From positions 558,501-622,500 of the forward strand of contig OX638295.1 in NCBI GenBank assembly GCA_951812345.1: 64,000 nucleotides of DNA, given 5' to 3'. The notes under the pieces were generated by a model that did no database searches, was not told the origin of the DNA, and saw only the letters and a program-made list of their open reading frames with translations. Of this stretch, positions 9,330 through 41,546 are shown piece by piece. The stretch comes from Rhodothermales bacterium. GTDB taxonomy: Bacteria; Bacteroidota; Rhodothermia; Rhodothermales; VXPQ01. Each line of letters starts with the position of its first letter. The stretch's first letter is position 1. The position numbers and the translations under genes were made by a program.

Positions 9330-10124
9330 ATGTCCATTCTTCCCAGAAGATCGCTCGGACAACATTTTCTTCGCGATCCGAATGTAGCGCGCAAAATTGT
9401 GGCTGCGCTGCAGGCCCCGGAAGAGGCGCATGTGGTGGAAATCGGGCCGGGCGAGGGGGCGCTGACGGGTTTTTTTCAGGACCGGTTCGCCACGTTTACC
9501 GCGATCGAGATAGACCGGCGCGCCGCCGAATTCCTGCGGGATGCGCGACCGGGGATCGACGTGCGGCAGATGGATGTCCTGGACGTGGATTGGCGGGCGC
9601 TTGCCGGGGAAAAGGGCGCCCCGATTTTCGTGGCGGGTAACCTGCCGTACAATATCACGAGCCCCATCCTGTTCGACCTGCTCGATGCGCGCGATGTCGT
9701 GCAGGAGGTCGTGGTGATGATGCAGCGGGAGGTGGCCGAGCGTCTTGTGGCGGTTCCCCGGACCAAGGCCTACGGCATTCTGAGCGTGCAGTGTCAGGCG
9801 CTTGCGCATCCTGAAATCCTGTTCCGGGTATCTCCCAATGTGTTTTACCCGCGCCCTGCCGTAACCAGCGCGGTGGTGCGTCTTACCTTTTCGGGGAAAG
9901 AAGATGCGCCCGAGGGGGTGGATATGCCGTTTTTTCGCAGCGTGGTCCGGACGGCCTTCAACCGCCGCCGCAAAACGCTGCGCAACGGGCTCGAACGCTG
10001 GACAAAAGGGGAGATGGCCATTGCGCTTCCCGAGGGAATGGATGCGCGGAGGCCGGAGGAGTTGACCCCGGAAGAGTTTGTCGCTCTTGCACGTTATCTT
10101 AAGACGCGCATCACGTTATCTTAA
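9330..10124 (+). CDS. ksgA: 16S rRNA dimethyladenosine transferase KsgA/RsmA
   Basis: This 264-residue Rossmann-fold methyltransferase opens with the family hallmark RRSLGQHFLRDPNVARKIV. It has the S-adenosylmethionine motif EIGPGEGALTG and the catalytic motif NLPYNITSPILF (NLPY). It ends with the helical C-terminal domain (RTAFNRRRKTLRNGL). It dimethylates the two adjacent adenines near the 3' end of 16S rRNA during 30S maturation. Length is as usual. The stop codon TAA lies in TTAAGGAGCGCTGATCG, which resembles an end of the MITE-like repeat. mgtE follows after 90 bases. Confidence 0.95.
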   Translation: MSILPRRSLGQHFLRDPNVARKIVAALQAPEEAHVVEIGPGEGALTGFFQDRFATFTAIEIDRRAAEFLRDARPGIDVRQMDVLDVDWRALAGEKGAPIFVAGNLPYNITSPILFDLLDARDVVQEVVVMMQREVAERLVAVPRTKAYGILSVQCQALAHPEILFRVSPNVFYPRPAVTSAVVRLTFSGKEDAPEGVDMPFFRSVVRTAFNRRRKTLRNGLERWTKGEMAIALPEGMDARRPEELTPEEFVALARYLKTRITLS

Positions 10125-20303: not shown

Positions 20304-20900
20304 TTGCATATTCGGGAAATTACGTTTGTCAAGGGATCGGCGTCCTGGAGTGGACTCCCTTCGGACGGACGGCCCGAAGTGGCGTTCGCCGGCCGCTCGA
20401 ACGTGGGCAAGAGTTCCTTGTTGAATGCGCTGGCGGGGCGCCGGGCGCTGGCCCGAACGAGCGGGACGCCGGGCAAGACCAGGGAATTCAATTATTACCT
20501 TGTCAACGAGCGTCTGTATTTCGTGGATCTTCCGGGCTTCGGCTATGCGAAAGTCTCGAAGCGGGAGCGTGCGCACTGGGCCCGGCTCATCGAGCGCTAC
20601 ATTGCGGAACGCGATATGCTGCGCCTGATCGTTCACCTGGTGGACAGCCGGCACGAGCCGGGCGTCCTCGACAGGAGTTTTATAGAATTCATGTGCGGGA
20701 GCGACGTGCCCTACGCTATTGCCCTTACGAAGTGCGACAAACTCTCCGGTAATGATCGTGTGAAGACGGAACACCGCATGCACGAGACGCTTTCGACGTA
20801 CGGACTGGAAATTCCGGTTTTTCTGACCTCATCGCAGACAAAACGGGGCTTGCCCGCCTTGTTGGAATGGATCGGGACGATGGCAACCATGGAACCATGA
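20304..20900 (+). CDS. engB: Ribosome-biogenesis GTPase EngB/YsxC
   Basis: This 198-residue single G-domain protein has G1 GRSNVGKSSLLNAL, G2 around GTPGKTREFNYY, G3 DLPGFGYA, G4 TKCDKL and G5 SSQTKRG, all typical of EngB. It starts at a TTG; the first residues (HIREITFVKGSASWSGLP) match the family's N-terminus, so the start is supported by similarity rather than codon. It acts in 50S subunit assembly. The stop overlaps the serA start by 4 bases (ATGA), indicating coupled translation. sucD lies just upstream. Confidence 0.94.
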   Translation: MHIREITFVKGSASWSGLPSDGRPEVAFAGRSNVGKSSLLNALAGRRALARTSGTPGKTREFNYYLVNERLYFVDLPGFGYAKVSKRERAHWARLIERYIAERDMLRLIVHLVDSRHEPGVLDRSFIEFMCGSDVPYAIALTKCDKLSGNDRVKTEHRMHETLSTYGLEIPVFLTSSQTKRGLPALLEWIGTMATMEP

Positions 20901-22492
20901 CAAAAAAGATGAAGGTGCTTATCACCGATGCGGTCGATCCGATCTGCATCGACATGCTGGAAGCCCGCGGCATTACGCCCGATGTCCGGTTGAAGCAATC
21001 CGGAGAGGCGTTGCGGGAGGCGGTTGCAGAGGCGGACGGCTGGATCATTCGCAGCGGCACCACCATTACGGCGGACCTTATCGAAGCGGCAGGTAACCTG
21101 AGGGTGATAGGACGCGCCGGGGTCGGGGTGGACAATATCGACCTTGCCGCCGCTACCCGCCGGGGCGTACTTGTAATCAATGCGCCTTCCGGCAATACGA
21201 TCTCGACTGCCGAGCACACCTGCGCCATGTTGCTTTCCATGGCCCGCCGCGTGCCTCAGGCGAACCGCTCTATTGCGGAGGGCAAGTGGGACCGCAAATC
21301 GTTCACCGGATCGGAAGTGTACGAAAAGACCCTCGGCGTCGTGGGGTTGGGGAAAATCGGACGGGAAGTGGCGGTGCGCATGGCCGGGTTCGGCATGAAC
21401 CTGATCGGGTACGACCCGGTGTTGTCGCAGGAGGCTGCCGAGCGCCTTGGGGTGCGCCTTGTGGACATGGACGGGTTATTGACCGGGAGTGACTTCATTA
21501 CCGTACATACGCCCCTGAACGACGCAACCCGCGGCCTGCTCCGGAAGGAAACGCTTGCGCAGTGCCGCCAGGGGGTGTGTATTGTCAATTGCGCCCGGGG
21601 AGGCATTGTCGAGGAAAAGGACCTGCTTGCTGCGCTGGATAGCGGGCAAGTGGGGGGCGTGGCGCTTGACGTGTATTCCATAGAGCCTCCGCCCGTTGAA
21701 CTGCAGGAATTGCTCAGGCATCCGAAGGTAATCGCTACGCCCCACATTGCGGCCTCGACGGAGGAAGCGCAGGAAAAAGTCGCGGTGCAGATTACCGAGC
21801 AGGTCATTCGCGCGCTATGCGGCGAGGCGGTGCAGACGCCTGTCAACGCGCTGGCCATCAAAATGGCGGCGCAACCGGATGTCCAACCCTATTTGAGTCT
21901 ATCCGATCGCCTTGGCCAGTTGATCGGGCAACTGGGGGGTGGGCGTATTCGGGGGATCACCGTGGGGTGTCGGGGGGATGTTCCGCGCCGTTATTCCGAA
22001 GTGCTGACGGTGGCTGCCGTACGCGGGATTCTATCGAAGTGGGTCACGGAACCCGTGAATCTGATCAATGCGCCGTTTCTTGCGGAGGATATGGGGATCC
22101 ATGTGACGGAAGCACGGGATACGGCGCCCGGCGGGTACACGAATCTGTTGCAGATCGGTTTGGAAACGGACGACGGCGCCCGCACGGTGGCCGGTACGAT
22201 ATTCGACCGCGACGAACCGCGCCTGGTGCGTATTGACGATTACTGGCTGGAGATCAAGCCGGAGGGGCACATGATCGTCTACAGGAATGTGGACCGGCCC
22301 GGCATGTTGGCGGCGGTGGGGAGCATCTTGGCCCGTAACGATATCAACATCGGCGCCCTGGCGCTGGGGCGGGCCGGCAAGGGAGAGATTGCTTTGACGG
22401 CGGTTACCGTGGACGAGGTGGTTGCGGCAGCCGTAGTCGGGGAGATTGCGGCGCTGGACGGTATCGAGGATGTGCGCAGGGTGGACGTGTAA
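20897..22492 (+). CDS. serA: D-3-phosphoglycerate dehydrogenase SerA
   Basis: This 531-residue enzyme starts at the ATG overlapping the engB stop. It has a split substrate-binding domain and a Rossmann domain (VVGLGKIGREVAVRMAGFGMNLIGYDP). The catalytic residues are in NCARGGIVEE (Arg), the DVYSIEPPP segment (Glu) and TPHIAASTEEAQ (His). Next is the intervening allosteric-substrate-binding domain typical of the long form, and then a C-terminal ACT domain (VYRNVDRPGMLAAVGSILARNDINI). It oxidises 3-phosphoglycerate to 3-phosphohydroxypyruvate, the first step of serine synthesis. The ACT domain predicts serine feedback control. Confidence 0.95.
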   Translation: MTKKMKVLITDAVDPICIDMLEARGITPDVRLKQSGEALREAVAEADGWIIRSGTTITADLIEAAGNLRVIGRAGVGVDNIDLAAATRRGVLVINAPSGNTISTAEHTCAMLLSMARRVPQANRSIAEGKWDRKSFTGSEVYEKTLGVVGLGKIGREVAVRMAGFGMNLIGYDPVLSQEAAERLGVRLVDMDGLLTGSDFITVHTPLNDATRGLLRKETLAQCRQGVCIVNCARGGIVEEKDLLAALDSGQVGGVALDVYSIEPPPVELQELLRHPKVIATPHIAASTEEAQEKVAVQITEQVIRALCGEAVQTPVNALAIKMAAQPDVQPYLSLSDRLGQLIGQLGGGRIRGITVGCRGDVPRRYSEVLTVAAVRGILSKWVTEPVNLINAPFLAEDMGIHVTEARDTAPGGYTNLLQIGLETDDGARTVAGTIFDRDEPRLVRIDDYWLEIKPEGHMIVYRNVDRPGMLAAVGSILARNDINIGALALGRAGKGEIALTAVTVDEVVAAAVVGEIAALDGIEDVRRVDV

Positions 22493-22550: not shown

Positions 22551-22650
22551 GTTTTTGTCCTTGTGTTCCACCGGTTTCTTAGATAGGATTTCCGCTCCTG
22601 TGGCGCAAGGACATAAAAAACAAGGACATAAAAAACAAGGACATAAAAAA
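22551..22650 (+). promoter_or_regulatory. Triple 15-bp tandem repeat and inverted partner upstream of the giant gene
   Basis: CAAGGACATAAAAAA occurs three times in perfect tandem at 22606-22650. An inverted partial copy (GTTTTTGTCCTTG) lies at 22551-22563. The array ends 34 bases before the giant gene's ATG, with a likely ribosome site (TGGAGAAG) in between. It falls in the promoter or leader, so a gain or loss of one unit by slippage would shift spacing by 15 bases. The inverted copy could pair with any unit to make a stem-loop. Confidence 0.6.
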
Positions 22651-22684: not shown

Positions 22685-25600
22685 ATGAGAACTATATCCT
22701 GGATCGTCGCGGGCATGGCGGCTATAACGGTCTCGCTCTTGACGCTGAGCGCGTGCGACGACGGGGCGCTGACGGGCCTGGACGATGTCGATCCGTCTGC
22801 GGGGGGTAATGCGCGTGTCGCCGTCGGGGACAGTACGGCCCGTGCAGGCGGCGTTCCAGGAGAGGGCGCGTCTTCCCTGGATCGGTATGCGCTTTTGGGT
22901 CGGATCTTGAGCGCCGACGGCAATCCGGATAGCGTGCGCGTACATGTCAAATCCTGGCATACGGATTATAACGAGACCGGTTACGCTACGCTCGGTATAC
23001 CTGCGAAGGGTACGATATACCACTGGGGGGCCGCGCATTCGGAGGGGGTAGATATCCATGGAGAGGGAGGCATTCCCGCGCTTGGACGGGATGCTTTGTA
23101 CGCCCTCTCTTTCGATAGTCCTGCGAGAGGCGATGCGTTGCTGGTCCTTTTGCCCTCCGCTGTCGATGTCGATACGTATTTCACATGGGATAACGGCGAT
23201 ATCGCTATTACGTCCCAGGCCATCGGGGCCAGGACGCATATCCTTGAGGATATATCGATCTATAACGATATTGGGTGGAGAAAAGCCGTTTGCGCGGGCG
23301 GTCGGTTCGGACGAATCGTTTTCGAGGGGGATAGCCTCGATGTGTCTACCGTGTTGCACCGTCGTTTTTATGGCGCCATATCCGGCGAAGCGGAAGGGGA
23401 GATACCGAAAGACGTTTCGGGCTGCGGAACGTCTTCGGATGCTTTCGATGTGCAATTGCTGGGATTCGCGGACGACGATGCGTACCAGATGATCGATTGG
23501 CGTCCGATCGTTTCGGAGTCGATATCCGAATCGGAATCGGTATTGGTTTCTAAATCTAAATCCGAATCGGTATCGGAATCGGAATCGGTTTCTGTATCGG
23601 AATCGGTATCTGCGAAGAGTTCGACGGCGAGTACGACCGCGAGCGCCAGCGGCAACCGATTGAACCGTTCAAAACCGGCGGGCCATGCGCCTCCTTCGGT
23701 GAATTTGTCGGCTTCTCCGGGCAAGATCGACCTCGGAAATAGTTCGACGCTTACCTGGTCGTCGTCGAACGCTACGAGCGTATCGATAAGTCCGGATGTC
23801 GGCCCGGATATCGGTACGGTTGCGACGTCGGGGCAGCGATCGGTTTCCCCGACGACTTCGACGACGTACACGATCGTGGCGAAAGGTCCGGGAGGAAGCA
23901 AATCGGACCGTGCAACCGTGAAGGTTCATATGCCTCCTTCGGTGAGTTTCTCCGCGTCTCCGGGCACGATTAACCTCGGCGGCAGTTCGACGCTTGGCTG
24001 GTCGTCCGAGCACGCTACGCTCGTATCGATCGGTCCGGATATCGGTTTGGTTGGAGCGTCGGGAGAGCGATCGGTTTCTCCGGATAGCACGACGACGTAC
24101 ACGATCGTGGCCACGGGCGCCGACGGAACGTCTACGCAGCGGGCAGAAGCAACCGTAACGGTTAATCGGCCGCCGACGGCCAACGCAGGCGCTGACCAGA
24201 CGGTGGACGAGGGGGATACGGTGACGCTATCCGGTTCGGGTAGTACGGACCCGGAGGGCGCGACGCTGACCTACGCCTGGACGGCTCCGGCAGGGACCGT
24301 GCTGTCGAGTACCACGGAGCCGTACGAGCGGACGTTCACGGCGCCGACGCAGCTTGTGTCGGACTCGGTGCTGACATTCACGCTGACGGTGAACGACGGG
24401 GCGCAAGACTCCGAGGCGGACACGGTGGCGGTGACGGTGACGGCGGACGCTCAGAGCGACAGAGCGGCGCTGGTCGCGCTCTACAACGCGACCGACGGGG
24501 CCAATTGGCAAACCAATACCAACTGGAACAGTAGCGCCGCCATCGATACGTGGTTCGGCGTCAGGACCGACGACGCCGGACGGGTGGTTTCTCTGGATCT
24601 CTTCCGCAACGACCTTTCGGGCTCGATCCCTGCGGCGTTGGGCGACCTGGCCAACCTCGAATACCTGGCTCTCTCCAACAACTCCCTTTCGGGCTCGATC
24701 CCGGCGGCGTTGGGCGACTTGACCAGCCTCACGAACCTGAATCTCTTCCGCAACTCCCTTTCGGGTTCGATCCCTGCGGAGTTGGGCGACCTCGCCAACC
24801 TCACGAGCCTGTCGATCGGTGAGAACTCCTTTTCGGGATCGATCCCTGCGGCGTTGGGCGACCTCGCCAACCTCGACTGGCTGAATCTCGCTAGCAACTC
24901 CCTTTCGGGCTCGATCCCTGCGGCGTTGGGCGACCTCGCCAACCTCACGAACCTGAATCTCAGTGGCAACTCCCTTTCGGGCTCGATCCCGGCGGCGTTG
25001 GGCGACCTCGCCAACCTCAGGAGGCTGTGGATCGGTGAGAACGACCTTTCGGGTTCGATCCCTGCGGCGTTTGTCAACCTGGACAATCTCATTCTCTTGC
25101 AAGTCGACAACGAGCTGTGCGTGCCGGGAGATACCGCATTCCAGCAATGGCTTGGCGATCTCGATGAGTTCGAGGGCGACAGCGACAACATCTGCAATCA
25201 GCCTCCTGTGGCCGATGCGGGCGCCGACCAGACGGTGGACGAGGGCGATACGGTGACGCTATCCGGTTCGGGTAGTACGGACGCGGAGGGCGCCTCGCTG
25301 ACCTACGCCTGGGGCGCTCCGGCGAGTATCTCGCTGTCGGACACCACGGCGCAGTCTCCGACGTTCGCGGCGCCGACGGAGCTGCTGTCGGACGCGTCGC
25401 TGACGTTCACGCTGACGGTGAACGACGGGACGCAAGATTCCGAAGCGGACACGGTGGCGGTGACGGTGACGGCGGGGCCGAACGATGCGCCGACGGCCAA
25501 CGCAGGCGTCGACCAGACGGTCGACGAGGGCGATACGGTGACGCTATCCGGTTCGGGTACGGACCCGGAAGGCGCGACGCTGACCTACGCCTGGGGCGCT

Positions 25601-28600
25601 CCGGCGAGTATCTCGCTGTCGGACGCCACGGCGCAGTCGCCGACGTTCACGGCGCCGACGGAGCTTCTGTCGGACTCGGTGCTGACGTTCACGCTAACGG
25701 TGAACGACGGGGCGCAAGACTCCGAGGCGGACACGGTGGCGGTGACGGTGACGGCGACGGCGACGGCGAACGATGCGCCGACGGCCGATGCGGGCGCCGA
25801 CCAGACGGTGGACGAGGGCGATACGGTGACGCTATCCGGTTCGGGTACGGACCCGGAAGGCGCGACGCTGACCTACGCCTGGGGCGCTCCGGCGAGTATC
25901 TCGCTGTCGGACGCCACGGCGCAGTCGCCGACGTTCACGGCGCCGACAGAGCTTCTGTCGAACGCGGTGCTGACGTTCACGCTAACGGTGAACGACGGGG
26001 CGCAAGACTCCGAGGCGGACACGGTCGTCGTGACGGTGTATCAGAAGGACAGAGCGGCGCTGGTCGCGTTCTACAACGCGACCGACGGGGCCAATTGGAG
26101 CAGAAATACCAACTGGAACGGTAGCGCCGCCATCGGTACGTGGTACGGCGTCGCGACCGATGACGCCGGACGGGTGGATTCTCTGACCCTCCTTAACACC
26201 TCCCTTTCGGGTTCGATCCCGGCGGAGCTGGGCGACTTGACCAGCCTTGAAGAACTGAATCTCCACGATAACTCCCTTTCGGGTTCGATCCCGGCGGAGC
26301 TGGGCGACTTGACCAACCTTGAAGGGCTGACTCTCACTTACAACGACCTTTCGGGTTCGATCCCGGCGGCGTTGGGCGACTTGACGAACCTTGAAAAACT
26401 GCGTCTCAGTGGCAACGACCTGACGGGCTCGATCCCGGCGGCGTTGGGCGACTTGACCAATCTCGAGAGCTTGGCTCTCGACAACAACGACCTTTCGGGT
26501 TCGATCCCTGCAGCGCTGGGCGACTTGACCAACCTTGAATGGCTGACTCTCGATGGCAACTCCTTGACGGGTTCGATCCCGGTGGAGTTTGTCAACCTGG
26601 ACGATCTCCTTACCTTGCAAGTCGACAACGAGCTGTGCGTCCCGGGGAGTACCGCATTCCAGCAATGGCTTGGCGATCTCGATGAGTTCGAGGGCGACAG
26701 CGACAACATCTGCAACGATGCTCCGACGGCCAACGCGGGCGCCGACCAGACGGTTGCGGAGGGGGCGACGGTGACGCTCTCCGGTTCGGGTACAGACAGT
26801 AATGGCAATGCGCTGATCAACCCGACCTACGCCTGGGGCGCTCCGGCGAGTATCACGTTGTCGGACACCACGGCTGCGTCGCCGACGTTCACGGCGCCGA
26901 CGGAGCTTCTGTCGGACTCGGTGCTCGAGTTCACGCTGACGGTGAACGACGGGACGCAAGATTCCGAGGCGGACACGGTCGTGGTGACGGTGACGGCGGG
27001 TACGAACGATGCGCCGACGGCCGATGCGGGCGTCGACCAAACGGTGGACGAGGGGGATGCGGTGACGCTATCCGGTTCGGGTACGGACCCGGAGGGTGCG
27101 ACGCTGACCTACGCCTGGGGCGCCCCGGCGAGTATCACGCTGTCGGACGCCACGTCGCAGTCGCCGACGTTCACGGCGCCGACGGATCTTCTGTCGGACG
27201 AGGTGCTCGAGTTCACGCTGACGGTGAACGACGGGACGCAAGATTCCGAGGCGGACACGGTGACGGTGACGGTCGAGGCGGGGGATAACGATGCGCCGAC
27301 GGCCAATGCAGGCGCCGACCAGACGGTGGCGGAGGGGGCGACGGTGACGCTATCCGGTTCGGGTACGGACCCTGAGGGGGCCTCGCTGACCTACGCCTGG
27401 GGCGCTCCGGCGAGTATCACGCTGTCGGACGCCACGGCGCAGTCTCCGACATTCGCGGCGCCGACGGAGCTTCTGTCGGACGCGCCGCTGACGTTCACGC
27501 TGACGGTGAACGACGGGACGCAAGATTCCGAGGCGGACACGGTCGTGGTGACGGTGACGGCGGGTACGAACGATGCGCCGACGGCCGATGCGGGCGCCGA
27601 TCAAACGGTGGACGAGGGGGATACGGTGACGCTATCCGGCTCGGGTACGGACCCTGAGGGCGCTTCGCTGACCTACGCCTGGGGCGCTCCGGCGAGTATC
27701 ACGCTGTCGGACGCCACGTCGCAGTCTCCGACGTTCGCGGCGCCGACGGAGCTTCTGTCGGACGCATCGCTGGAGTTCACGCTGGTGGTGAACGACGGGG
27801 TGAACGACTCCGCGAAGGACACGGTGGCGGTGACGGTGACGGCGGGTACGAACGATGCGCCGACGGCCGACGCAGGCGCCGACCAGACGGTTGCGGAGGG
27901 GGCGACGGTGACGCTATCCGGTTCGGGTACGGACCCGGAGGGCGCGACGCTGAGCTACGCTTGGGGCGCTCCGGCGAGTATCACGCTGTCGGACGCCACG
28001 TCGCAGTCTCCGACGTTCGCGGCGCCGACGGAGCTTCTGTCGGACGCGTCGCTGACGTTCACGCTGACGGTGAACGACGGGACGCAAGATTCCGAGGCGG
28101 ACACGGTGACGGTGACGGTCGAGGCGGGGGATAACGATGCGCCGACGGCCGATGCGGGCGCCGATCAAACGGTGGACGAGGGGGATACGGTGACGCTCTC
28201 CGGTTCGGGTACGGACCCGGAGGGGGCCTCGCTGAGCTACGCCTGGGGCGCTCCGGCGAGTATCACGCTGTCGGACGCCACGTCGCAGTCTCCGACGTTC
28301 GCGGCGCCGACGGAGCTTCTGTCGGACGCGTCGCTGACGTTCACGCTGACGGTGAACGACGGGACGCAAGATTCCGAGGCGGACACGGTGACGGTGACGG
28401 TCGAGGCGGGGGATAACGATGCGCCGACGGCCAACGCAGGCGTCGACCAAACGGTTGCGGAGGGGGCGACGGTGACGCTCTCCGGTTCGGGTACGGACCC
28501 GGAGGGCGCCTCGCTGAGCTACGCCTGGGGCGCTCCGGCGAGTATCACGCTGTCGGACGCCACGTCGCAGTCTCCGACGTTCGCGGCGCCGACGGAGCTT

Positions 28601-31561
28601 CTGTCGGACGCATCGCTGACGTTCACGCTGACGGTGAACGACGGGACGCAAGATTCCGAGGCGGACACGGTGACGGTGACGGTCGAGGCGGGGGATAACG
28701 ATGCGCCGACGGCCAACGCAGGCGTCGACCAAACGGTTGCGGAGGGGGCGACGGTGACGCTCTCCGGTTCGGGTACGGACCCGGAGGGCGCCTCGCTGAG
28801 CTACGCCTGGGGCGCTCCGGCGAGTATCACGCTGTCGGACGCCACGTCGCAGTCTCCGACGTTCGCGGCGCCGACGGAGCTTCTGTCGGACGCGTCGCTG
28901 ACGTTCACGCTGACGGTGAACGACGGGACGCAAGACTCCGAGGCGGACACGGTGACGGTGACGGTCGAGGCGGGGGATAACGATGCGCCGACGGCCGATG
29001 CGGGCGCCGATCAAACGGTGGACGAGGGGGATACGGTGACGCTGGACGGGAGTGGCAGCTCCGACCCGGAGGGCGCCTCGCTGAGCTACGCCTGGGACGC
29101 TCCGGCGAGTATCACGCTGTCGGACGCCACGTCGCAGTCTCCGACGTTCGCGGCGCCGACGGAGCTTCTGTCGGACGCGTCGCTGACGTTCACGCTGACG
29201 GTGAACGACGGGACGCAAGATTCCGAGGCGGACACGGTGACGGTGACGGTCGAGGCGGGGGATAACGATGCGCCGACGGCCGATGCGGGCGCCGACCAGA
29301 CGGTGGACGAGGGAGATACGGTGACGCTGGACGGGAGTGGCAGCTCCGACCCGGAGGGCGCGGATCTGGACTACGACTGGGACGCTCCGGCGGGTATCAC
29401 GCTGTCGGACGCCACGACGCAGTCGCCGTCGTTCGCGGCGCCGACGCAGCTTCTGTCGGACGCGTCGCTGACGTTCACGCTGACGGTGTACGACGGGGTG
29501 AACTATTCTGCGGAGGACCAAGTGACGGTGACGGTCGAGGCGGGGGATAACGATGCGCCGACGGCCAACGCGGGCCCCGACCAGACGGTGGCGGAGGGAG
29601 CGACGGTGACGCTATCCGGTTCGGGTACGGATCCGGAGGGCGCGGCGCTGACCTATACCTGGACGGCGCCGACGGATATCACGCTGTCGAGTACCACGGC
29701 GCAGTCGCCGACGTTCACGGCGCCGACGGATCTTCTGTCGGACGAGGTGCTCGAGTTCACGCTGACGGTGAACGACGGGACGAACAACTCTGCAGCGGAC
29801 ACGGTGACGGTGACGGTCAATGCATCGCCTACGGTCACGTTGTCGGCCAATCCAGGTACGATTTGCCGAGGAGGATCGTCAATGCTCACCTGGTCGTCTA
29901 CGAACGCTACGAGCGTATCGATCAGTCCGGGTATCGGTTCGGTTGCGCTATCGGGATCGGAAGAGGTTTCTCCGACGAGCACGACAACCTACACGGCTAC
30001 GGCTACAAATCCGGCAGGAAGCAATACGGACCAGGCAACCGTGACGGTTATTAATCAGTCTCCGACGATCACGTCTTTCACTGCTTCTCCGAGCACGATT
30101 TACCGCGGGAGTAATTCGACGCTTAGCTGGTCGTCTACGAACGCTGCGAGCGTATCGATCAATCAGGGTATCGGTTCGGTTGCGGCGTCGGGAACGCGAT
30201 CGGTTTCTCCGACGAGCACGACGACCTACACGATCACGGCGACAAATGCTTGCGGAAGCGTCACGGCCACAGCGACCGTGACGGTTATTCCGCCTCCTAC
30301 GGTCGAGTTTGAGGACCCCGATCCAGGTACGATTTGCGATGGACAGTCGTCAACGCTCGAGTGGTCGTCTACGAACGCTACGAGCGTATCGATCAGTCCG
30401 GGCATCGGTTCGGTTGCGGCGTCGGGAACGCGATCGGTTTATCCGACGAGCACGACAACCTACACGATCACGGCTACAAATCCGGCAGGAAGCGATACGG
30501 ACCAGGCGACCGTGACGGTTATTAATCAGTCTCCGACGATCACGTCTTTCACTGCTTCTCCGAGCACGATTTACCGCGGGAGTAATTCGACGCTTAGCTG
30601 GTCGTCTACGAACGCTGCGAGCGTATCGATCAATCAGGGTATCGGTTCGGTTGCGGCGTCGGGAACGCGATCGGTTTCTCCGACGAGCACGACGACCTAC
30701 ACGATCACGGCGACAAATGCTTGCGGAAGCGTCACGGCCACAGCGACCGTGACGGTTATTCCGCCTCCTACGGTCGAGTTTGAGGACCCCGATCCAGTTA
30801 CGATTTGCGATGGACAGTCGTCAACGCTCGAGTGGTCGTCTACGAACGCTACGAGCGTATCGATCAGTCCGGGCATCGGTTCGGTTGCGGCGTCGGGAAC
30901 GCGATCGGTTTCTCCGACGAGCACGACAACCTACACGATCACGGCTACAAATCCGGCAGGAAGCGATACGGACCAGGCGACCGTGACGGTTATTGATCAG
31001 TCTCCTACGGTGAGTTTGTCTGCGTTTCCGGGTACGATCGATTCGGGGGACCCGTCAACGCTCACCTGGTCGTCTACGAACGCTGCGAGCGTATCGATCG
31101 ATCAGGGCATCGGCGAGGTTGATACAGATGGGGAGCAAGAGGTTTCTCCGACGAGCACGACGACCTACACGATCACGGCGACAAATGCTTGCGGAAGCGT
31201 CACGGCCACAGCGACCGTGACGGTGAACCTTACAGCCTCTATCACGGGTCCAACATTGATTCCTTTGTTATTGGAATCCACATGGGGGTCCACGGTCACA
31301 GGCGGCACGCCTCCCTACACGTACAGCTGGCACTATGGGACCATCTCCTGTCCCGAAGCTTCTGCCCTTGCTGCACCACCTGCTGCCCTTGCTGCCCGTG
31401 CCGATGCTTGCGTGTGGAACTATACAGGCGCAGGATCGGGAAGCAGTTATAGTTATACGCCGACGACATGGCCTTCTGGGCGAGTTCGGCTGATCGTTAG
31501 CGATTCGGCCAGTCCCGAGAATTCGGTGACGAAGACGCTGGACGTGACGGTCGATCCATAA
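22685..31561 (+). CDS. Giant modular surface lipoprotein (PKD/Ig repeats, two LRR blocks)
   Basis: The product has 2958 residues. A lipoprotein signal ends in LSAC (Cys24) followed by DDG; acidic residues after Cys can mark surface lipoproteins in Bacteroidota. Next come a unique region to about residue 275, a Ser/Glu/Val-rich linker (nt 23515-23640), and two Ig-like domains with LTWSS/LGWSS cores. A first PKD/K319-like domain starts near 24171. LRR block 1 (24451-25200, seven 24-residue LSGSIPAALGDL repeats) is followed by three PKD-like domains. LRR block 2 (26041-26715, six repeats) is followed by eleven PKD-like domains to 29820. Six more Ig-like domains run to 31230, then a C-terminal domain with two Cys. 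Each LRR block has a DRAALVA-YNATDGANW cap. No enzyme motif is visible; adhesion or matrix binding is inferred. Confidence 0.85.
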   Translation: MRTISWIVAGMAAITVSLLTLSACDDGALTGLDDVDPSAGGNARVAVGDSTARAGGVPGEGASSLDRYALLGRILSADGNPDSVRVHVKSWHTDYNETGYATLGIPAKGTIYHWGAAHSEGVDIHGEGGIPALGRDALYALSFDSPARGDALLVLLPSAVDVDTYFTWDNGDIAITSQAIGARTHILEDISIYNDIGWRKAVCAGGRFGRIVFEGDSLDVSTVLHRRFYGAISGEAEGEIPKDVSGCGTSSDAFDVQLLGFADDDAYQMIDWRPIVSESISESESVLVSKSKSESVSESESVSVSESVSAKSSTASTTASASGNRLNRSKPAGHAPPSVNLSASPGKIDLGNSSTLTWSSSNATSVSISPDVGPDIGTVATSGQRSVSPTTSTTYTIVAKGPGGSKSDRATVKVHMPPSVSFSASPGTINLGGSSTLGWSSEHATLVSIGPDIGLVGASGERSVSPDSTTTYTIVATGADGTSTQRAEATVTVNRPPTANAGADQTVDEGDTVTLSGSGSTDPEGATLTYAWTAPAGTVLSSTTEPYERTFTAPTQLVSDSVLTFTLTVNDGAQDSEADTVAVTVTADAQSDRAALVALYNATDGANWQTNTNWNSSAAIDTWFGVRTDDAGRVVSLDLFRNDLSGSIPAALGDLANLEYLALSNNSLSGSIPAALGDLTSLTNLNLFRNSLSGSIPAELGDLANLTSLSIGENSFSGSIPAALGDLANLDWLNLASNSLSGSIPAALGDLANLTNLNLSGNSLSGSIPAALGDLANLRRLWIGENDLSGSIPAAFVNLDNLILLQVDNELCVPGDTAFQQWLGDLDEFEGDSDNICNQPPVADAGADQTVDEGDTVTLSGSGSTDAEGASLTYAWGAPASISLSDTTAQSPTFAAPTELLSDASLTFTLTVNDGTQDSEADTVAVTVTAGPNDAPTANAGVDQTVDEGDTVTLSGSGTDPEGATLTYAWGAPASISLSDATAQSPTFTAPTELLSDSVLTFTLTVNDGAQDSEADTVAVTVTATATANDAPTADAGADQTVDEGDTVTLSGSGTDPEGATLTYAWGAPASISLSDATAQSPTFTAPTELLSNAVLTFTLTVNDGAQDSEADTVVVTVYQKDRAALVAFYNATDGANWSRNTNWNGSAAIGTWYGVATDDAGRVDSLTLLNTSLSGSIPAELGDLTSLEELNLHDNSLSGSIPAELGDLTNLEGLTLTYNDLSGSIPAALGDLTNLEKLRLSGNDLTGSIPAALGDLTNLESLALDNNDLSGSIPAALGDLTNLEWLTLDGNSLTGSIPVEFVNLDDLLTLQVDNELCVPGSTAFQQWLGDLDEFEGDSDNICNDAPTANAGADQTVAEGATVTLSGSGTDSNGNALINPTYAWGAPASITLSDTTAASPTFTAPTELLSDSVLEFTLTVNDGTQDSEADTVVVTVTAGTNDAPTADAGVDQTVDEGDAVTLSGSGTDPEGATLTYAWGAPASITLSDATSQSPTFTAPTDLLSDEVLEFTLTVNDGTQDSEADTVTVTVEAGDNDAPTANAGADQTVAEGATVTLSGSGTDPEGASLTYAWGAPASITLSDATAQSPTFAAPTELLSDAPLTFTLTVNDGTQDSEADTVVVTVTAGTNDAPTADAGADQTVDEGDTVTLSGSGTDPEGASLTYAWGAPASITLSDATSQSPTFAAPTELLSDASLEFTLVVNDGVNDSAKDTVAVTVTAGTNDAPTADAGADQTVAEGATVTLSGSGTDPEGATLSYAWGAPASITLSDATSQSPTFAAPTELLSDASLTFTLTVNDGTQDSEADTVTVTVEAGDNDAPTADAGADQTVDEGDTVTLSGSGTDPEGASLSYAWGAPASITLSDATSQSPTFAAPTELLSDASLTFTLTVNDGTQDSEADTVTVTVEAGDNDAPTANAGVDQTVAEGATVTLSGSGTDPEGASLSYAWGAPASITLSDATSQSPTFAAPTELLSDASLTFTLTVNDGTQDSEADTVTVTVEAGDNDAPTANAGVDQTVAEGATVTLSGSGTDPEGASLSYAWGAPASITLSDATSQSPTFAAPTELLSDASLTFTLTVNDGTQDSEADTVTVTVEAGDNDAPTADAGADQTVDEGDTVTLDGSGSSDPEGASLSYAWDAPASITLSDATSQSPTFAAPTELLSDASLTFTLTVNDGTQDSEADTVTVTVEAGDNDAPTADAGADQTVDEGDTVTLDGSGSSDPEGADLDYDWDAPAGITLSDATTQSPSFAAPTQLLSDASLTFTLTVYDGVNYSAEDQVTVTVEAGDNDAPTANAGPDQTVAEGATVTLSGSGTDPEGAALTYTWTAPTDITLSSTTAQSPTFTAPTDLLSDEVLEFTLTVNDGTNNSAADTVTVTVNASPTVTLSANPGTICRGGSSMLTWSSTNATSVSISPGIGSVALSGSEEVSPTSTTTYTATATNPAGSNTDQATVTVINQSPTITSFTASPSTIYRGSNSTLSWSSTNAASVSINQGIGSVAASGTRSVSPTSTTTYTITATNACGSVTATATVTVIPPPTVEFEDPDPGTICDGQSSTLEWSSTNATSVSISPGIGSVAASGTRSVYPTSTTTYTITATNPAGSDTDQATVTVINQSPTITSFTASPSTIYRGSNSTLSWSSTNAASVSINQGIGSVAASGTRSVSPTSTTTYTITATNACGSVTATATVTVIPPPTVEFEDPDPVTICDGQSSTLEWSSTNATSVSISPGIGSVAASGTRSVSPTSTTTYTITATNPAGSDTDQATVTVIDQSPTVSLSAFPGTIDSGDPSTLTWSSTNAASVSIDQGIGEVDTDGEQEVSPTSTTTYTITATNACGSVTATATVTVNLTASITGPTLIPLLLESTWGSTVTGGTPPYTYSWHYGTISCPEASALAAPPAALAARADACVWNYTGAGSGSSYSYTPTTWPSGRVRLIVSDSASPENSVTKTLDVTVDP
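25201..26040 (+). repeat. PKD-like repeats 2-4 in the giant gene
   Basis: Three consecutive units of about 280 bp lie between the two LRR blocks. They open with DAG/NAG-x-DQTVDEGDTVTLSGSG and end in FTLTVNDG-QDSEADTV. They are close copies at nucleotide level, within the coding sequence. Confidence 0.8.
26716..29820 (+). repeat. Tandem array of eleven PKD-like repeats (about 282 bp each)
   Basis: Units 5-15 repeat with a period of 282 bp, or 285 bp where SGSGT is replaced by DGSGSS. Units 11 and 12 (about 28423-28704 and 28705-28986) are almost identical, differing at only a few bases, so the array expanded recently. The units alternate between VDEGDTV and VAEGATV forms. Confidence 0.85.
30056..30997 (+). 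repeat. Direct duplication of a 471-bp two-domain Ig unit
   Basis: The segment starting CAGTCTCCGACGATCACG at 30056 recurs at 30527, a period of 471 bp or 157 codons. Only a few differences are seen, such as CCAGGTACG versus CCAGTTACG. Each unit encodes two Ig-like domains, one beginning SPTITSFTASPSTI, the other PPTVEFEDPDP. Confidence 0.82.
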
Positions 31562-31570
31562 AGATATGCC

Positions 31571-31903
31571 ATGGTAAGCCCCCATATCCATAATATCTTC
31601 AACCAAGATGACATGGCGCCTGCTCAGGCCGATCCGGGTCATGCCCTTCCGTTCGACGATCCAGATCCTGACGAAGGAGGCTCTTCGTCGAGTTTCAGCG
31701 TGTCGTCGTATTTCGAAGGGGCTGTGGACATGCTCTACTCGGTTTCGTCGTCGAACACGAGTGTTGTGACCACGAGCATGTCGTCGTACGCAACGGTCAC
31801 GATCAGCCCGGTGGCGGCAGGTACGGCGACAATAACGGTGACGGCGACCGACTCCAGCATAGCCACGCAGTCCTTCGACGTGACGGTAACGCCCTCGCCC
31901 TAA
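31571..31903 (+). CDS. Small Ig-like (BIG2/cadherin-like) domain ORF, possible fragment
   Basis: A 110-codon frame starts 9 bases after the giant gene's stop. Its second half (LYSVSSSNTSVVTTSMSS, then PVAAGTATITVTATD and QSFDVTVTP) is a recognisable bacterial Ig-like domain of the kind found in tandem in surface proteins. It has no signal peptide and no convincing ribosome site. It may be the stump of a former C-terminal extension or of a neighbouring repeat protein rather than an active gene. Translational coupling to the giant gene is possible because of the short gap. The N-terminal half is acidic and not recognised. Confidence 0.45.
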   Translation: MVSPHIHNIFNQDDMAPAQADPGHALPFDDPDPDEGGSSSSFSVSSYFEGAVDMLYSVSSSNTSVVTTSMSSYATVTISPVAAGTATITVTATDSSIATQSFDVTVTPSP

Positions 31904-32139: not shown

Positions 32140-32193
32140 GGGAATTACCGGGTTAACTTGACGGGTCCTTGATCCAGCCCGTATGTTCCGCCT

Positions 32194-32355
32194 ATGGAAT
32201 CTGCCTGAACAAATCATACGCTGTTCCAAGGCGACAACCTCGCATTCATGCGAGCAATGAACTCCGAACAGGTAGACCTCATCGCTACCGATCCCCCGTT
32301 CAATAAGGGACGGGATGTTCACGCCGCACCGGACGGCTCGATGGCCCGGCAATGA
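32194..32355 (+). pseudogene. 5' fragment of a DNA-methyltransferase gene carried inside the IS
   Basis: From 32209 the frame reads TNHTLFQGDNLAFMRAMNSE, then VDLIATDPPFNKGRD. This is the start of a site-specific DNA methyltransferase: FQGDN at the N-terminus and catalytic motif IV DPPF. The likely ATG at 32194 is followed by an in-frame TGA at 32206-32208, and the homology stops by about 32340, with a TGA at 32353. It is therefore a broken piece of about 45 codons. It lies wholly inside the IS, between the left inverted repeat and the transposase 3' end, and points toward the transposase. It appears to be passenger DNA. Confidence 0.78.
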
Positions 32356-32359
32356 GGTT

Positions 32360-33292
32360 TTATGCGATCAGGTCCGCGTACCGGAGCCGTTTGCCGGTCA
32401 TGCTCCGGGCAACTTCGGCCATTTGCTCCAGCGTGTCGTAATCGCGCAGGTCGTGGCGACCAACGAAGTCCTGCACGTAGCGATGCAGGTGCTTTTTGCT
32501 GAACTTGTGATATACGCCTTTATGCGCCCGCTTCAGCGTGGCCCAGAACGATTCGATCCCGTTCGTGTGCACCATGCCCCGCACGTATTCGCCCACGGAG
32601 TGCTTCACGGTGTCGAGGTCGTAGATGTAGCGCAGGCCGGTATACGCCCGGTTGTCGTCGGTGTACAGGGGGGTGCCGAACAGGACATGATCCAGCACGA
32701 AATCATGTAGCGTCGCGGCGGTCGTATCTTCGACGACCTCGGCCTTGATCTTGCCGGTCGCCCGATCTTTTGCGCCAACGACCGCCGTCTTGCCAACGAC
32801 GCCCCTGCCTGCGTGCAGCTTCTTCGACTCGTGCTTGTTCGCTTCTTTGCCGCCGACGAACGTCTCGTCCACCTCTACCGGGCCGCCGAAGAGATTGTCT
32901 TCTCCGGCGTCGAACGCCTTGCGAATCCGTTGGAGCAGATGCCACGCGCTGCTCTGGTGAATATCTATGTCCCGTGCGATCTTCGTGCTCGATACGCCTT
33001 TCAGGCTCGTCATGTGCAGGTAGATGGCGTATACCCACTTGCGCAGCGGAAGCCGGGAGGCTTCCATGACCGTGCCAACCCTGACGCTGAAATACTTCCG
33101 GCAATCGGTGCACCAGTAGGGCATAGGCTTTGCAGCCTTCACCTCGCGGGTGCGGGTGCTCTTGCAGCGCGGGCAATGGCGCCCGTCGGGCCAGATGCGG
33201 GATTCGAACCACCGCCGGGCCGCTTCCTCGTCGGGAAACATCTCGGCCAACTGCATTACGGATATGCCGTTTCGATGTGTTCTGTGAGCCAT
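32360..33292 (-). CDS. IS1595-family (ISXO2-like) transposase
   Basis: This 310-residue transposase has an N-terminal zinc ribbon (CPRCKS and CTDCRKYF). A helix-turn-helix-like part follows (SSTKIARDIDIHQSSAWHLLQRIRKAF). The DDE-type core is VEVDETFVGG (first Asp), YTDDNRAY (second Asp) and HTNGIESFWATLKRAHKGVYH (final acidic residue). Length and motif order are those of intact family members, with no frameshift or stop. It inserts its own element with an 8-bp duplication. The promoter must lie in the 60 bases between its ATG and the right inverted repeat. Confidence 0.93.
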   Translation of the reverse strand: MAHRTHRNGISVMQLAEMFPDEEAARRWFESRIWPDGRHCPRCKSTRTREVKAAKPMPYWCTDCRKYFSVRVGTVMEASRLPLRKWVYAIYLHMTSLKGVSSTKIARDIDIHQSSAWHLLQRIRKAFDAGEDNLFGGPVEVDETFVGGKEANKHESKKLHAGRGVVGKTAVVGAKDRATGKIKAEVVEDTTAATLHDFVLDHVLFGTPLYTDDNRAYTGLRYIYDLDTVKHSVGEYVRGMVHTNGIESFWATLKRAHKGVYHKFSKKHLHRYVQDFVGRHDLRDYDTLEQMAEVARSMTGKRLRYADLIA

Positions 33293-33376
33293 GTTTTTGA
33301 CCTCTCGATGTTCGTTCTAACTATCTGTAAATATAGGAACTTACATCGAAAATGTCAAGTTAAACCGGTAATTCCC

Positions 33377-33555: not shown

Positions 33556-36500
33556 ATGTTGCGCAGGTGCGTTACGACCGTACTCGTTCTGCTCGTCATG
33601 CCCATTGCGGCGCTGGCGCAAAACACGGGCAAGCTCTCCGGCGTCATCACCGATGCATCTACGGGCGAATCGCTGCCCGGGGCCAATATCGTTCTGGGAG
33701 GCACCCTGCTCGGGAGCGCTTCGGATTTAGATGGAAACTACTTCATCATTGGCGTGCCCGTGGGGGCGTATGACGTTACGGCTTCTTTCGTAGGGTATCA
33801 GGCCCAAACTATCCAGCAGGTGGAGATCAATGCCGGCTACACGCGGGAATTGAATTTCAGTCTCGCGCCCGGGGCCGAGCTGGAGGAAATTGTGGTCGAG
33901 TACGAACGACCGATTATCCAGAAGGACGCTATCGGCGCTCCGCGCGTGATAAACAGCGACGAGTTGGTGGTGCTTCCGATCCGGGGCGTCGCCAATGTGG
34001 CCTCGCTTCAGAGCGGCGTGGTTACGTCGGAAGGTACGGGCCTTTTCGTGCGCGGGGGTCGTGAACAGGAACTCACGTATTACGTGGATGGGGTCCGGAT
34101 ATCAGGCCAGCAGGCCCTTCCGCGCGTGGCCATCTCGGAACAGGAAATGCTGATCGGAACCATTCCGGCCAAGTACGGCGATGCACAAGCGGGTGTGGTG
34201 TCGATCACGACGAAGGGCGGCGCCGACCGCTTTTTTGGCACCGTGGGAGCCTATACCTCTCAGAGGCTGGACAGTTACGGCCAAAGCCTCGGCGAGATTT
34301 CGCTGGGAGGCCCGATTGTCCCCGGTCGTGTCAGTTTCTTTGTGTCGGGGCAGCATCGCCGTCTTGAGGATTCCGGCCCGTACGGCGTACCCACGTATCA
34401 GCTTACGGACGATCAGCTTGCCGAGCTCAATGCCAATCCGCAGGTTGTGCGCGCAACCAATGCCGCCGGGGATTCCTTGTATCTGCCGTTCCCTTGGGAG
34501 GCCGCCCAGGCCGCTGTCGACAACGGGGAGCTGCTTACGCCGGACTCGCTGGCTGTCCTGCTGAACCTTCCCGAGGGATACAGCCTTGATGGAGGAGGAC
34601 TGATAAGCGCGCCGGACACGTACCGTCGCGAAGATTTTACGCTGGAATCGGCGAAAGATCGCCCCCTTGGAGAAACGATCGTAACCGGCAATGTTACCAT
34701 CCAGCCTACGCAGACCCTCACGGTGCGCCTGGGAGGCATGTACGAAACCCAGCGGGAAGAGCGGCTCAGCTATCGTCGGCATGTGTTCAATACCAATTCC
34801 TTTTATCATAACGAGCAGGATACATGGCGGGTCTACGGCAGTCTGCGTCAGCGCTTCGCCTCCAACTTCTTCTACCAGATCGACGCGGCGTATCAGAACT
34901 ATAACTATACCCTGTACCCCAACGGATTCTCCGATAATGTGGAAGAGGCGTTTTCCTACGGAGATCTCGAGAGCGATTACTTACAAACGGCCCGCCGCTA
35001 TTTTGCGGCGCGATCCACCGGGTATGCGCCATTGTACACCGCCGACGGCACCGCCGGATTGGGTAGCGTTGCGGGCGTTACCTTCTCCATGCCTGGCGCT
35101 CCGCTGGCCACCTTCCAGAAGCAGGATCGGAAGGCATTTCAGATATCGGGGAACGCGACGGCGCAGATCGGCCTGCACCAGTTGGAGTTCGGCGGCGAGT
35201 ACCGCACGTTCACGGACCGCTGGTACAGCATAGGCGGTTTCGGGTTGTCCCGCTACGCTCAGGACGACAATTGCGAGCAGGTGGCCTGCTACGCTAGCTA
35301 CAGCGATTTGCCGTTCGAAGCCTTCCGGGAACGGGCCACCTATTACGGGTATGATTTCCGGGGGCTGAACGAAGTAAACGACCAGAACATCCAGGGATAT
35401 TTCGACCGGACGAACCTCAATGTGGCGCCGTACCAGCCGATCTATTACGGCGGGTATCTGCAGGACAAGATCGAGTACCGCGACCTGATCCTGAATCTTG
35501 GCGTGCGCATGGAGGTGTTCGACAACAACGCGCCGGTGCTGAAGGACATTTATGCGCCGCGTCCCATTGTTCGCGCGGGTTCGGTGCCCGGCACGCCTGG
35601 CGGCATCGATGCGGACGATGCGGTGTACTTCAACGATGCAGGCGACGTGGTCGGCTACCGCGATGTGGACGGTAACTTCTTCGATGTCGAGGGGTCCAGG
35701 GTGGATGCCTTGAATATTGTGAACGATCTGTCCGGGCAGGTTCAGCCGACCGACGAACCCATTTCCAATGCGTTCGAGGAGTATACGCCGCAGGCTACGT
35801 TCATGCCGCGCATCGGGGTCAGCTTCCCGGTGACCGACCGGGCGGTGTTCTTTGCGTCCTTCAACATAACCAGCCAGCGTCCCACGGAGCGTGCGTTTAC
35901 GCCTTTCACGGCCTACGAGGAAATCACATCCCAGAATTCCCGTACGCCGAATCCCAAGCTGGAGTCGGAGCGGACTACCCAGTACGAACTGGGTTTCCGG
36001 CAGCGGCTGGGCGCCAGCACGGCGTTCACGATTTCCGGGTTCTACCGGACGCAGGAAAACAAGATCAGCAACCGCCGTTTGATTGGGGGCTTCCCATCCT
36101 ACGGCACGTATCTGAATGCGGATTTCACCACGACCAAGGGCGTTGAACTCGGCTTTGACTTGCGCCGGACCCGCAATCTCGCGGTGAACGCGAACTACAC
36201 GCTGTCGTTTGCGCAGGGCACCGGATCGGACGCCGGCGCCACTTCGGTGATTGTCTGGCGCGGTTCCGTGTTTCCGAACACGATCGCTCCGGCGGACTTC
36301 GACCAGCGGCATACGTTGAATGCGTCGGTGGATTATCGCTTTGGCGAGGGCGAGGGACCGGCGATGGGGGGGGGCAGCCTGCTTGAGAATACGGGGCTGA
36401 ACATCCTGTTCCGGTACGGCAGCGGCATGGCGTACACGGCGCTGTCCGGGTCGTCGTTCAACGTGAACGATAGCTTCACCGACGACGCGACAGGTTCCGT

Positions 36501-36849
36501 CAACTCGGCGCGTCTCCCGTCCACCTCCCGCATCGATGTGCGCCTGGATAGACGCTTCCAGGTGGGCAGCGCTTCGCTGACCGCCTATTTGATTGTGCTC
36601 AATCTGCTGGACACGCAGAACGTGTTGGCGGTTTTCCGGGCTACGGGCTTGCCCGACAACGACGGCTATCTGATGACGGATGGCGGTCGGGGTTTTCTTA
36701 CTACGCAAGCTGATCCCACGGCCGCTGCATTTTTGTACGATGCGTACATCGGAGGCCCGGTGAACGTAGGAAGCAGGCACACGTCGGCGTCCAGCCTGAT
36801 GTACAGCTGGCCTCGCCGGTTCCGCCTGGGATTTGCGCTCAACTTTTAA
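33556..36849 (+). CDS. TonB-dependent outer-membrane receptor with carboxypeptidase-like N-domain
   Basis: This 1097-residue protein starts 5 bases after a strong AGGAGGT site. It has a signal peptide (VLVLLVMPIAALAQ) and a CarboxypepD_reg-like domain of about 85 residues (GKLSGVITDASTGESLPGANI, then FVGYQAQT). Next are a plug domain (GVANVASLQSGVV, LFVRGGREQELTYYVDGVRI) and a long beta-barrel ending in RFRLGFALNF with a terminal Phe. No SusD-like gene follows. Instead the next genes encode a sorting-domain protein and a PorV-like protein, so this is not a canonical glycan-uptake locus. The transported substrate is unknown. Confidence 0.9.
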   Translation: MLRRCVTTVLVLLVMPIAALAQNTGKLSGVITDASTGESLPGANIVLGGTLLGSASDLDGNYFIIGVPVGAYDVTASFVGYQAQTIQQVEINAGYTRELNFSLAPGAELEEIVVEYERPIIQKDAIGAPRVINSDELVVLPIRGVANVASLQSGVVTSEGTGLFVRGGREQELTYYVDGVRISGQQALPRVAISEQEMLIGTIPAKYGDAQAGVVSITTKGGADRFFGTVGAYTSQRLDSYGQSLGEISLGGPIVPGRVSFFVSGQHRRLEDSGPYGVPTYQLTDDQLAELNANPQVVRATNAAGDSLYLPFPWEAAQAAVDNGELLTPDSLAVLLNLPEGYSLDGGGLISAPDTYRREDFTLESAKDRPLGETIVTGNVTIQPTQTLTVRLGGMYETQREERLSYRRHVFNTNSFYHNEQDTWRVYGSLRQRFASNFFYQIDAAYQNYNYTLYPNGFSDNVEEAFSYGDLESDYLQTARRYFAARSTGYAPLYTADGTAGLGSVAGVTFSMPGAPLATFQKQDRKAFQISGNATAQIGLHQLEFGGEYRTFTDRWYSIGGFGLSRYAQDDNCEQVACYASYSDLPFEAFRERATYYGYDFRGLNEVNDQNIQGYFDRTNLNVAPYQPIYYGGYLQDKIEYRDLILNLGVRMEVFDNNAPVLKDIYAPRPIVRAGSVPGTPGGIDADDAVYFNDAGDVVGYRDVDGNFFDVEGSRVDALNIVNDLSGQVQPTDEPISNAFEEYTPQATFMPRIGVSFPVTDRAVFFASFNITSQRPTERAFTPFTAYEEITSQNSRTPNPKLESERTTQYELGFRQRLGASTAFTISGFYRTQENKISNRRLIGGFPSYGTYLNADFTTTKGVELGFDLRRTRNLAVNANYTLSFAQGTGSDAGATSVIVWRGSVFPNTIAPADFDQRHTLNASVDYRFGEGEGPAMGGGSLLENTGLNILFRYGSGMAYTALSGSSFNVNDSFTDDATGSVNSARLPSTSRIDVRLDRRFQVGSASLTAYLIVLNLLDTQNVLAVFRATGLPDNDGYLMTDGGRGFLTTQADPTAAAFLYDAYIGGPVNVGSRHTSASSLMYSWPRRFRLGFALNF

Positions 36850-40508: not shown

Positions 40509-41546
40509 ATGAAAAAGCAATATCGACACCTTGTCGTCGTGTTGGCCCTCTTGCCAGGACTCGTTGCGTTCGAGGCCCTGGGGCAAAGCAACGAACGGTT
40601 CGGGACCGCCGCACTGTCGGAGTTGACGGTGCCGGTTACTCCGCGAACCATTGCGCTTGGCTCTACCTTGACCGGCGGTATGAACGGGGCTTCGGGTGTG
40701 GAGGCGCTTATCTCCAACCCGGCGGCAATCCTGGTCAATCCGAGTACGACAGCTATGTTTAGCCGCATGAACTATGTGGCGGATGTAGGCGTCAACTATT
40801 TCGGGGTGACTCAGCGATTCGGAGCAAGTAACATTGGGCTTACTGTCACGAACTGGGACTACGGGGATATCCCTGAGACGACCGTAGAGAATCCCGAGAT
40901 CGATCCGAACAATACCTGGTCGGCCGCCACGATTGCGGTGGGCCTCACGTACGGACGCCAGTTGACTGATCGTATCGCAGCGGGGATTACCTTCAAGGGA
41001 CTTAGCCAGCGCATTGACGATGTAGGCGCCCGCACCGTGGCGCTCGACGCCGGAATGACCTACGTCGTGGGCGAGTCGGGGCTGCGTTTCGGCGTTAGCC
41101 TGCGCAACTTCGGTCCACAGTTCAGTTTCGATGGTGTGGGCCTTCAGGATCCTATCATCACGACGAGTCCCACCGGGACGTATGAGGTCCCGGGCGAAAT
41201 CCGGGATGTGCGCTCGGAGTTGCCCTCCATGCTGAATTTTGGCGCCGTGTATGAGAGCCGATTCACCAATGATTTTACAGCTACGGTTCTGGCGAATTTC
41301 CGGTCGAATTCGTACGATGTGAACCAATATGCGGGGGGGCTCGAGTTGGCCTTCCAGGGGTTGCTCTTCATGCGTGCCGGTCTGGATGTATCCAGCGAGC
41401 AGGAATTAGTGCACTGGGCGGAATGGAATGTGGGAGCCGGGCTTTCGCTTCCGATCGGTCCAAGCCGGTTGATGGTTGATTATGCCTACCGTCCTTCGAA
41501 AGTGTTTAACAGCGTAAACGTTTTTGCTGCGTCGTTCACGCTCTGA
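40509..41546 (+). CDS. PorV/PorQ family outer-membrane protein (cassette 2)
   Basis: This 345-residue protein has a signal peptide ending FEALGQ. It then shows the family pattern: VPVTPRTIALGSTLTGGMNG, GVEALISNPAAILVNPSTT, MNYVADVGVNYFGVTQRFG. Regular beta strands follow to FAASFTL. In studied type IX systems PorV is the shuttle that receives folded cargo. Here the gene lies 48 bases behind a sorting-domain cargo candidate, so a dedicated pair is plausible. A strong hairpin terminator (41570-41605) follows and closes the three-gene unit. The protein has the same length as the first PorV/PorQ-like protein at 4192-5229. Confidence 0.82.
   Translation: MKKQYRHLVVVLALLPGLVAFEALGQSNERFGTAALSELTVPVTPRTIALGSTLTGGMNGASGVEALISNPAAILVNPSTTAMFSRMNYVADVGVNYFGVTQRFGASNIGLTVTNWDYGDIPETTVENPEIDPNNTWSAATIAVGLTYGRQLTDRIAAGITFKGLSQRIDDVGARTVALDAGMTYVVGESGLRFGVSLRNFGPQFSFDGVGLQDPIITTSPTGTYEVPGEIRDVRSELPSMLNFGAVYESRFTNDFTATVLANFRSNSYDVNQYAGGLELAFQGLLFMRAGLDVSSEQELVHWAEWNVGAGLSLPIGPSRLMVDYAYRPSKVFNSVNVFAASFTL

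Follow-up and report, generated by a model that had tools for sequence, protein, structure and literature searches.

A multi-copy family of predicted lipoproteins in Rhodothermales with a constant head and differing arrangements of plant-type LRR, PKD and Ig-like modules

The window analysed here is a stretch of 64,000 nucleotides from a Rhodothermales bacterium (contig OX638295.1, forward-strand positions 558,501 to 622,500), whose genome, G000, consists of one contig (C1) of 2,817,622 bases and is 96% complete. An intact open reading frame with an ATG start, 2958 codons and zero internal stops (22685..31561, +) lies between a serA-type dehydrogenase gene (20867..22492, +) and a TonB-dependent receptor-like gene (33556..36849, +), which form the upstream and downstream edges of an insertion site. 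In three congeners (G001, G002 and G004) the receptor-like gene follows serA directly with nothing between them, and in a further species (G005) the same site holds a gene whose N-terminal region, termed the head below, is 45% identical to that of the window protein; of six species of one genus, three thus have an occupied site and three an empty one. Shortly before the start codon lie three perfect 15-bp repeats CAAGGACATAAAAAA (22606..22650, +), of which the paralogues contain one unit; the triple repeat may be able to vary expression. Downstream of the stop codon there is an orphan Ig-like module remnant (31571..31903, +), absent from the orthologous locus L009 of the sister genome, followed by a transposon (32140..33376) with terminal inverted repeats, an 8-bp target duplication TATTTAAT and, recognized by sight, an IS1595-like transposase gene (32360-33292, -). 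The exact empty site of this transposon is present at L009. The element also holds a short fragment reading MNSEQVDLIATDPPFNKGRDVH, which resembles an adenine DNA methylase motif. Further downstream, at 40509-41546, a gene recognized by sight as encoding a PorV-like outer-membrane protein forms a conserved cluster with the TonB receptor-like gene and a gene for a protein with a T9SS-like tail.

The predicted product of the large open reading frame had been characterized in a preliminary description as a lipoprotein of 2958 residues with CDDG after its signal, containing 15 PKD domains, eight other Ig-like domains, two LRR blocks and a Ser-rich linker. All of this holds: the signal peptide (22685..22756, +) ends at Cys24 in a lipobox (LSAC, then DDG), and the domain counts were matched by Pfam together with a local profile parse, the models of which were built from the protein's own sequence. 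Pfam recovered 15 K319L-like PKD stretches and LRR families and, more weakly, Ig-type domains, with curated thresholds passed by PF22352 (K319L-like PKD; 618.8 bits against a cut-off of 27) and PF13855 (LRR_8; 108.9 bits against a cut-off of 27). The LRRs are of the plant-type class, with 24-residue repeats of the form LxxLxLxxNxLSGxIP. In order along the + strand, the signal peptide is followed by the head (residues ~25-278; 22757..23518), the Ser-rich linker (residues ~279-335; 23519..23689), Ig-like domains 1-2 (23693..24166), PKD domain 1 (24170..24451, seen by both Pfam and the profile parse), LRR block 1 (24452..25198), PKD domains 2-4 (25202..26050), LRR block 2 (26039..26713), PKD domains 5-15 (26717..29827, a tandem array in which a 282-bp unit is present 11 times with 90% matches), Ig-like domains 3-8 (29828..31231) and a C-terminal domain (residues 2850-2958; 31232..31561 including the stop codon). 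Each LRR block is capped at both ends (N-cap and C-cap), with 6 or 5 profile-matched repeats between the caps. A domain homologous to the C-terminal one ends the orthologue at L009, and remnants of it are found downstream of L012. Matches in NCBIfam to XopAE, XopAC, XopL and M36 peptidases were all under the cut-off and covered LRR or PKD repeats only, and these names were rejected.

The mature N terminus, with acidic residues at +2 and +3 and without a preceding polar residue, only loosely resembles Bacteroidota lipoprotein export signals, in which a polar or positive residue precedes two acidic ones shortly after the Cys and of which C-X-K-(D/E)2, SDDDD and SDDFE have been published; the single SusD homologue of G000 starts CDSI. 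The type IX secretion system (T9SS) translocon protein SprA is present in the genome. A search for the T9SS sorting tail (Por_Secre_tail, TIGR04183) placed none of its 47 genome matches within the gene (C1:581185-590061). It may be added that these 47 sorting-domain matches occur in 2.8 Mb, alongside only one SusD homologue.

The residues before the linker matched nothing in Pfam, even with the threshold relaxed to E<=1, no PDB chain matching the head was found by search, and an AlphaFold model of the head (pLDDT 33) was unusable as a fold query. Near-identical heads of about 275 residues occur at seven loci in two species, three in G000 (the window gene, L013 and L014) and four in the sister species G003 (L009-L012), with the more distant homologue of G005 in a third. 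When 114 genomes of the order were searched with a head profile, matches were confined to these three genomes, bar one match of 59 residues (E 1.4e-4); no convincing relatives were detected outside the genus among those genomes, and none in viral contigs. The lipobox LSAC (residues 21-24) is kept in 8/8 heads, and pN/pS of the head is about 0.2 to L009 and to L010, indicating conservation at the protein level. In G000 the similarity extends well beyond the head, in that the segment 22636..25208 (+), which begins 49 bp ahead of the ATG, is 99.5% identical to L013 (2574 bp shared) and 98.6% identical to L014, and the concave residues of LRR block 1 are all the same in both paralogues. Pieces of the serA locus lie upstream of the paralogues: for L010, L013 and L014 the serA 3' end, for L011 and L012 larger parts of the gene. 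The dispersed copies therefore appear to derive from the serA locus. The fragments ahead of the L011 and L012 heads (upstream of position 10001 in these loci) are internally deleted (residues ~255-372 and 500-530).

Between the two species, pS of the head is only 0.044-0.059, as against 0.199 for serA, 0.239 for gatA and 0.248 for sucD, all upstream, and 0.413 for the TonB receptor downstream. Because this low divergence reaches synonymous sites, purifying selection on the protein alone is insufficient to account for it, whereas gene conversion would explain it. The non-coding DNA upstream of L011 and L012 is 73-79% identical to that of other copies, compared with 97-98% for the heads, and in a tree of the heads the three G000 copies cluster together (support 0.97) although L013 and L010 have the same insertion junction. 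These comparisons point to homogenization of the head by gene conversion, probably including exchange across the species boundary.

Behind the head, most of the protein differs even between orthologues. The window gene and L009 share their flanks, head and C-terminal domain, but most of the interior differs, that of L009 consisting of 12 LRRs, a PKD domain, six LRRs, a PKD domain and then fourteen Ig-like domains; LRR block 1 of the window protein is the counterpart of the second LRR block in both L009 and L010. Similarly, the orthologues L013 and L010 keep the flanks and the head, and the profile parse gives them different module orders. A full-length copy with the C-terminal domain is found at the serA locus only. 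In L010, L013 and L014 the reading frame closes at a common TGA directly following an LRR C-cap, and degraded PKD sequence comes next; in L011 and L012 a frameshift follows an LRR C-cap, and PKD remnants lie downstream. The preliminary description had regarded the placing of LRR blocks within a PKD array as unusual, which fails locally: at least four other G000 proteins (L015-L018) use the same kinds of module in other orders. The real peculiarity is of another kind, namely that the copies of the family keep their head constant while the modules behind it are swapped. A practical caution is that orthologous loci need not hold the same predicted binding modules, something that names such as giant adhesin hide.

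Variation within the LRR blocks was assessed in 201 distinct repeats from eleven proteins, taking positions 2, 3, 5, 7 and 8 as concave. Mean amino acid entropy at these positions was 3.25 bits, compared with 0.98 bits for the convex exposed x positions, or 0.64-0.67 bits for the latter in head-bearing proteins alone. Control LRR proteins of the genus had similar concave entropy (2.7-3.3) and higher convex entropy (1.2-1.9). It is accordingly the uniform scaffold that is distinctive at the sequence level, concave variability by itself being not unusual. In an AlphaFold model of residues 496-935 (PKD-LRR-PKD; mean pLDDT 79.9), strands fall on the LxxLxL segment of the repeats and cover the variable concave positions, and the variation is concentrated on this predicted face; the nearest solved structures, by sequence profile and by fold, are ectodomains of plant LRR receptors. 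Between unrelated repeats, concave synonymous sites vary more than scaffold ones.

The clearest case of changed faces is the pair L013 and L014, which have zero differences in 330 head codons, yet their LRR blocks are replaced. Over ten same-register repeats, a concave pN of 0.62 stands against a scaffold pS of 0.19 (Fisher p 6e-14), with a scaffold pN of 0.08; the corresponding whole-gene counts are 0.48, 0.19 and 0.04. Positive selection on concave residues was considered for this pair (pN/pS 1.4) and rejected on a control of recent copies, which gave no sign of it on short time scales: pooled block pairs had a concave pN of 0.023, below the scaffold pS of 0.043 and about twice the scaffold pN of 0.010. 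Since recent copies carry no excess of amino acid change, the difference between L013 and L014 is put down to block replacement. Further support comes from L012 of G003 and L013 of G000, which occupy non-orthologous loci and have in common 8-9 consecutive repeats whose concave residues are nearly identical and whose DNA is 95.7% identical, after which the blocks diverge inside the array. On these sequence comparisons, we attribute the diversity of the faces mainly to exchange of blocks and not to rapid point mutation.

We hypothesize, and consider reasonably probable, that the protein is a modular recognition or adhesion lipoprotein of the outer membrane, belonging to a multi-copy family that is diversified by recombination between paralogues. 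The constant lipidated head would serve as the anchor, the PKD and Ig-like domains as a stalk and the plant-type LRR blocks as carriers of predicted binding faces; homologous recombination between paralogues would homogenize the head and the promoter-proximal segment, and LRR, PKD and Ig-like modules would be exchanged, expanded or lost. The earlier suggestion of a surface fibre with binding heads survives in part, in that the domain content fits a lipid-anchored stalk with binding modules and the PKD-LRR-PKD segment folds well in the model; outward display, ligand binding by the LRR blocks and an adaptive benefit of diversity are what we infer in addition. The close family is carried by two species only, which gives no basis for an estimate of exchange rate. 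It is also conceivable, if unlikely, that the serA locus, with its full-length copy, serves for display and that the dispersed copies ending after an LRR block are donors, with cells of one population presenting different faces.

Repeat-rich genes rearrange without selection, and the main rival to recognition diversified by recombination is neutral repeat turnover: the protein would be a plain adhesive or structural fibre, its modules altered by neutral unequal crossing-over in repetitive DNA and its concave positions varying through tolerance rather than through selected recognition diversity. This is possible, although we think it rather less than probable. The PKD and Ig-like arrays are indeed long tandem repeats at the DNA level, the recent block copies have a concave pN under the scaffold pS, and other LRR proteins of the genus reach similar concave entropy. 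Tolerance sits less easily with the convex positions, which are also exposed and yet nearly invariant (0.6-1.0 bits), with a head conserved at the protein level, or with whole-block replacement behind identical heads that leads to very different predicted binding faces. A targeted process acting on concave codons, such as a diversity-generating retroelement, would give the pattern seen at concave positions 5 and 8, where the third base of the codon hardly changes (T or C, as NNT or NNC) and the first two vary. However, the variation spans whole multi-repeat blocks and leaves the conserved A-rich N9 codons unchanged, concave sites are almost the same in recent copies and the G000 genome gave no match to a reverse transcriptase (PF00078), so that this explanation is close to refuted.

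The proximity of a TonB receptor-like gene, a short way downstream, brings to mind a nutrient-capture lipoprotein working for that receptor in the manner of SusD, SusE or SusF. We consider this improbable: the receptor directly follows serA, with no such gene, in three congeners, other copies of the head lie elsewhere with different flanks, and a transposon separates the two genes in the window. Nor is the domain content SusD-like, as the Pfam search with the window protein gave no SusD_RagB (PF07980) match and the single match in G000 is at C1:2104500. More improbable still is an assembly artefact or a decaying gene, which the common TGA after the LRR block in L010, L013 and L014 and the frameshifts at a like junction in L011 and L012 might suggest; the window copy reads through 2958 codons without interruption, purifying selection acts on the head, and OX638293.1, a separate assembly, contains a full-length orthologue of 2379 aa.

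Returning to the hypothesis of a recombining family of recognition or adhesion lipoproteins, several known systems invite comparison. The plant receptors to which the solved structures belong (GSO1, MIK2, ERL1 and FLS2) have ectodomains of the same 24-residue LRR class, but the window protein has neither a kinase nor a transmembrane helix, being a bacterial lipoprotein in which short LRR blocks are interspersed with PKD and Ig-like domains. The variable lymphocyte receptors of lampreys and hagfish have a uniform LRR scaffold with variable concave residues. The window family resembles them in both respects, and also in the exchange of LRR cassettes between copies, which here is deduced from sequence across loci and genomes. 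Variable lymphocyte receptors are assembled by LRR cassette copying, according to the available parts of the reports (PMC3900441; PMC3138743). Unlike them, the family is not known to have germline-to-somatic assembly, a deaminase or clonal expression; exchange would take place between paralogues in the genome over evolutionary time, and the likeness is one of analogy, not homology. Whether the display and donor arrangement outlined above makes the family a bacterial analogue of these receptors in logic is as doubtful as that arrangement itself.

Among bacteria, the available parts of one report describe tandem LRR proteins of Flavobacterium psychrophilum as a cell-surface family in a T9SS-bearing member of the Bacteroidota, with the number of LRR ORFs differing among isolates (PMC8400371); there the genes form a consecutive cluster, and those parts describe neither a constant lipoprotein head on dispersed loci nor a PKD/Ig-like mosaic. 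Similarly, surface protein diversity in Porphyromonas gingivalis has been ascribed to domain rearrangement and allelic exchange (PMC5266723), in protein families unrelated to the present one. A description of a family combining such a head with shuffled modules was not found in the open-licence literature. If the hypothesis is true, a small-genome member of the Rhodothermales keeps a group of lipid-anchored proteins, with recombination holding the head constant while trading binding faces. It would then be testable whether bacteria diversify surface recognition by LRR cassette exchange, and whether partners such as hosts, prey, competitors or phages drive it. A further comparison lies within G000 itself, where L015-L018 contain the same LRR N-cap, repeat and C-cap as well as PKD modules (for L018 only the LRR part was found) but, unlike the window protein, carry a type IX secretion sorting domain at the C terminus and are without the lipoprotein head. 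One of these T9SS-tailed proteins, L015 (7448-16888), has 3147 codons and six LRR blocks alternating with PKD domains.
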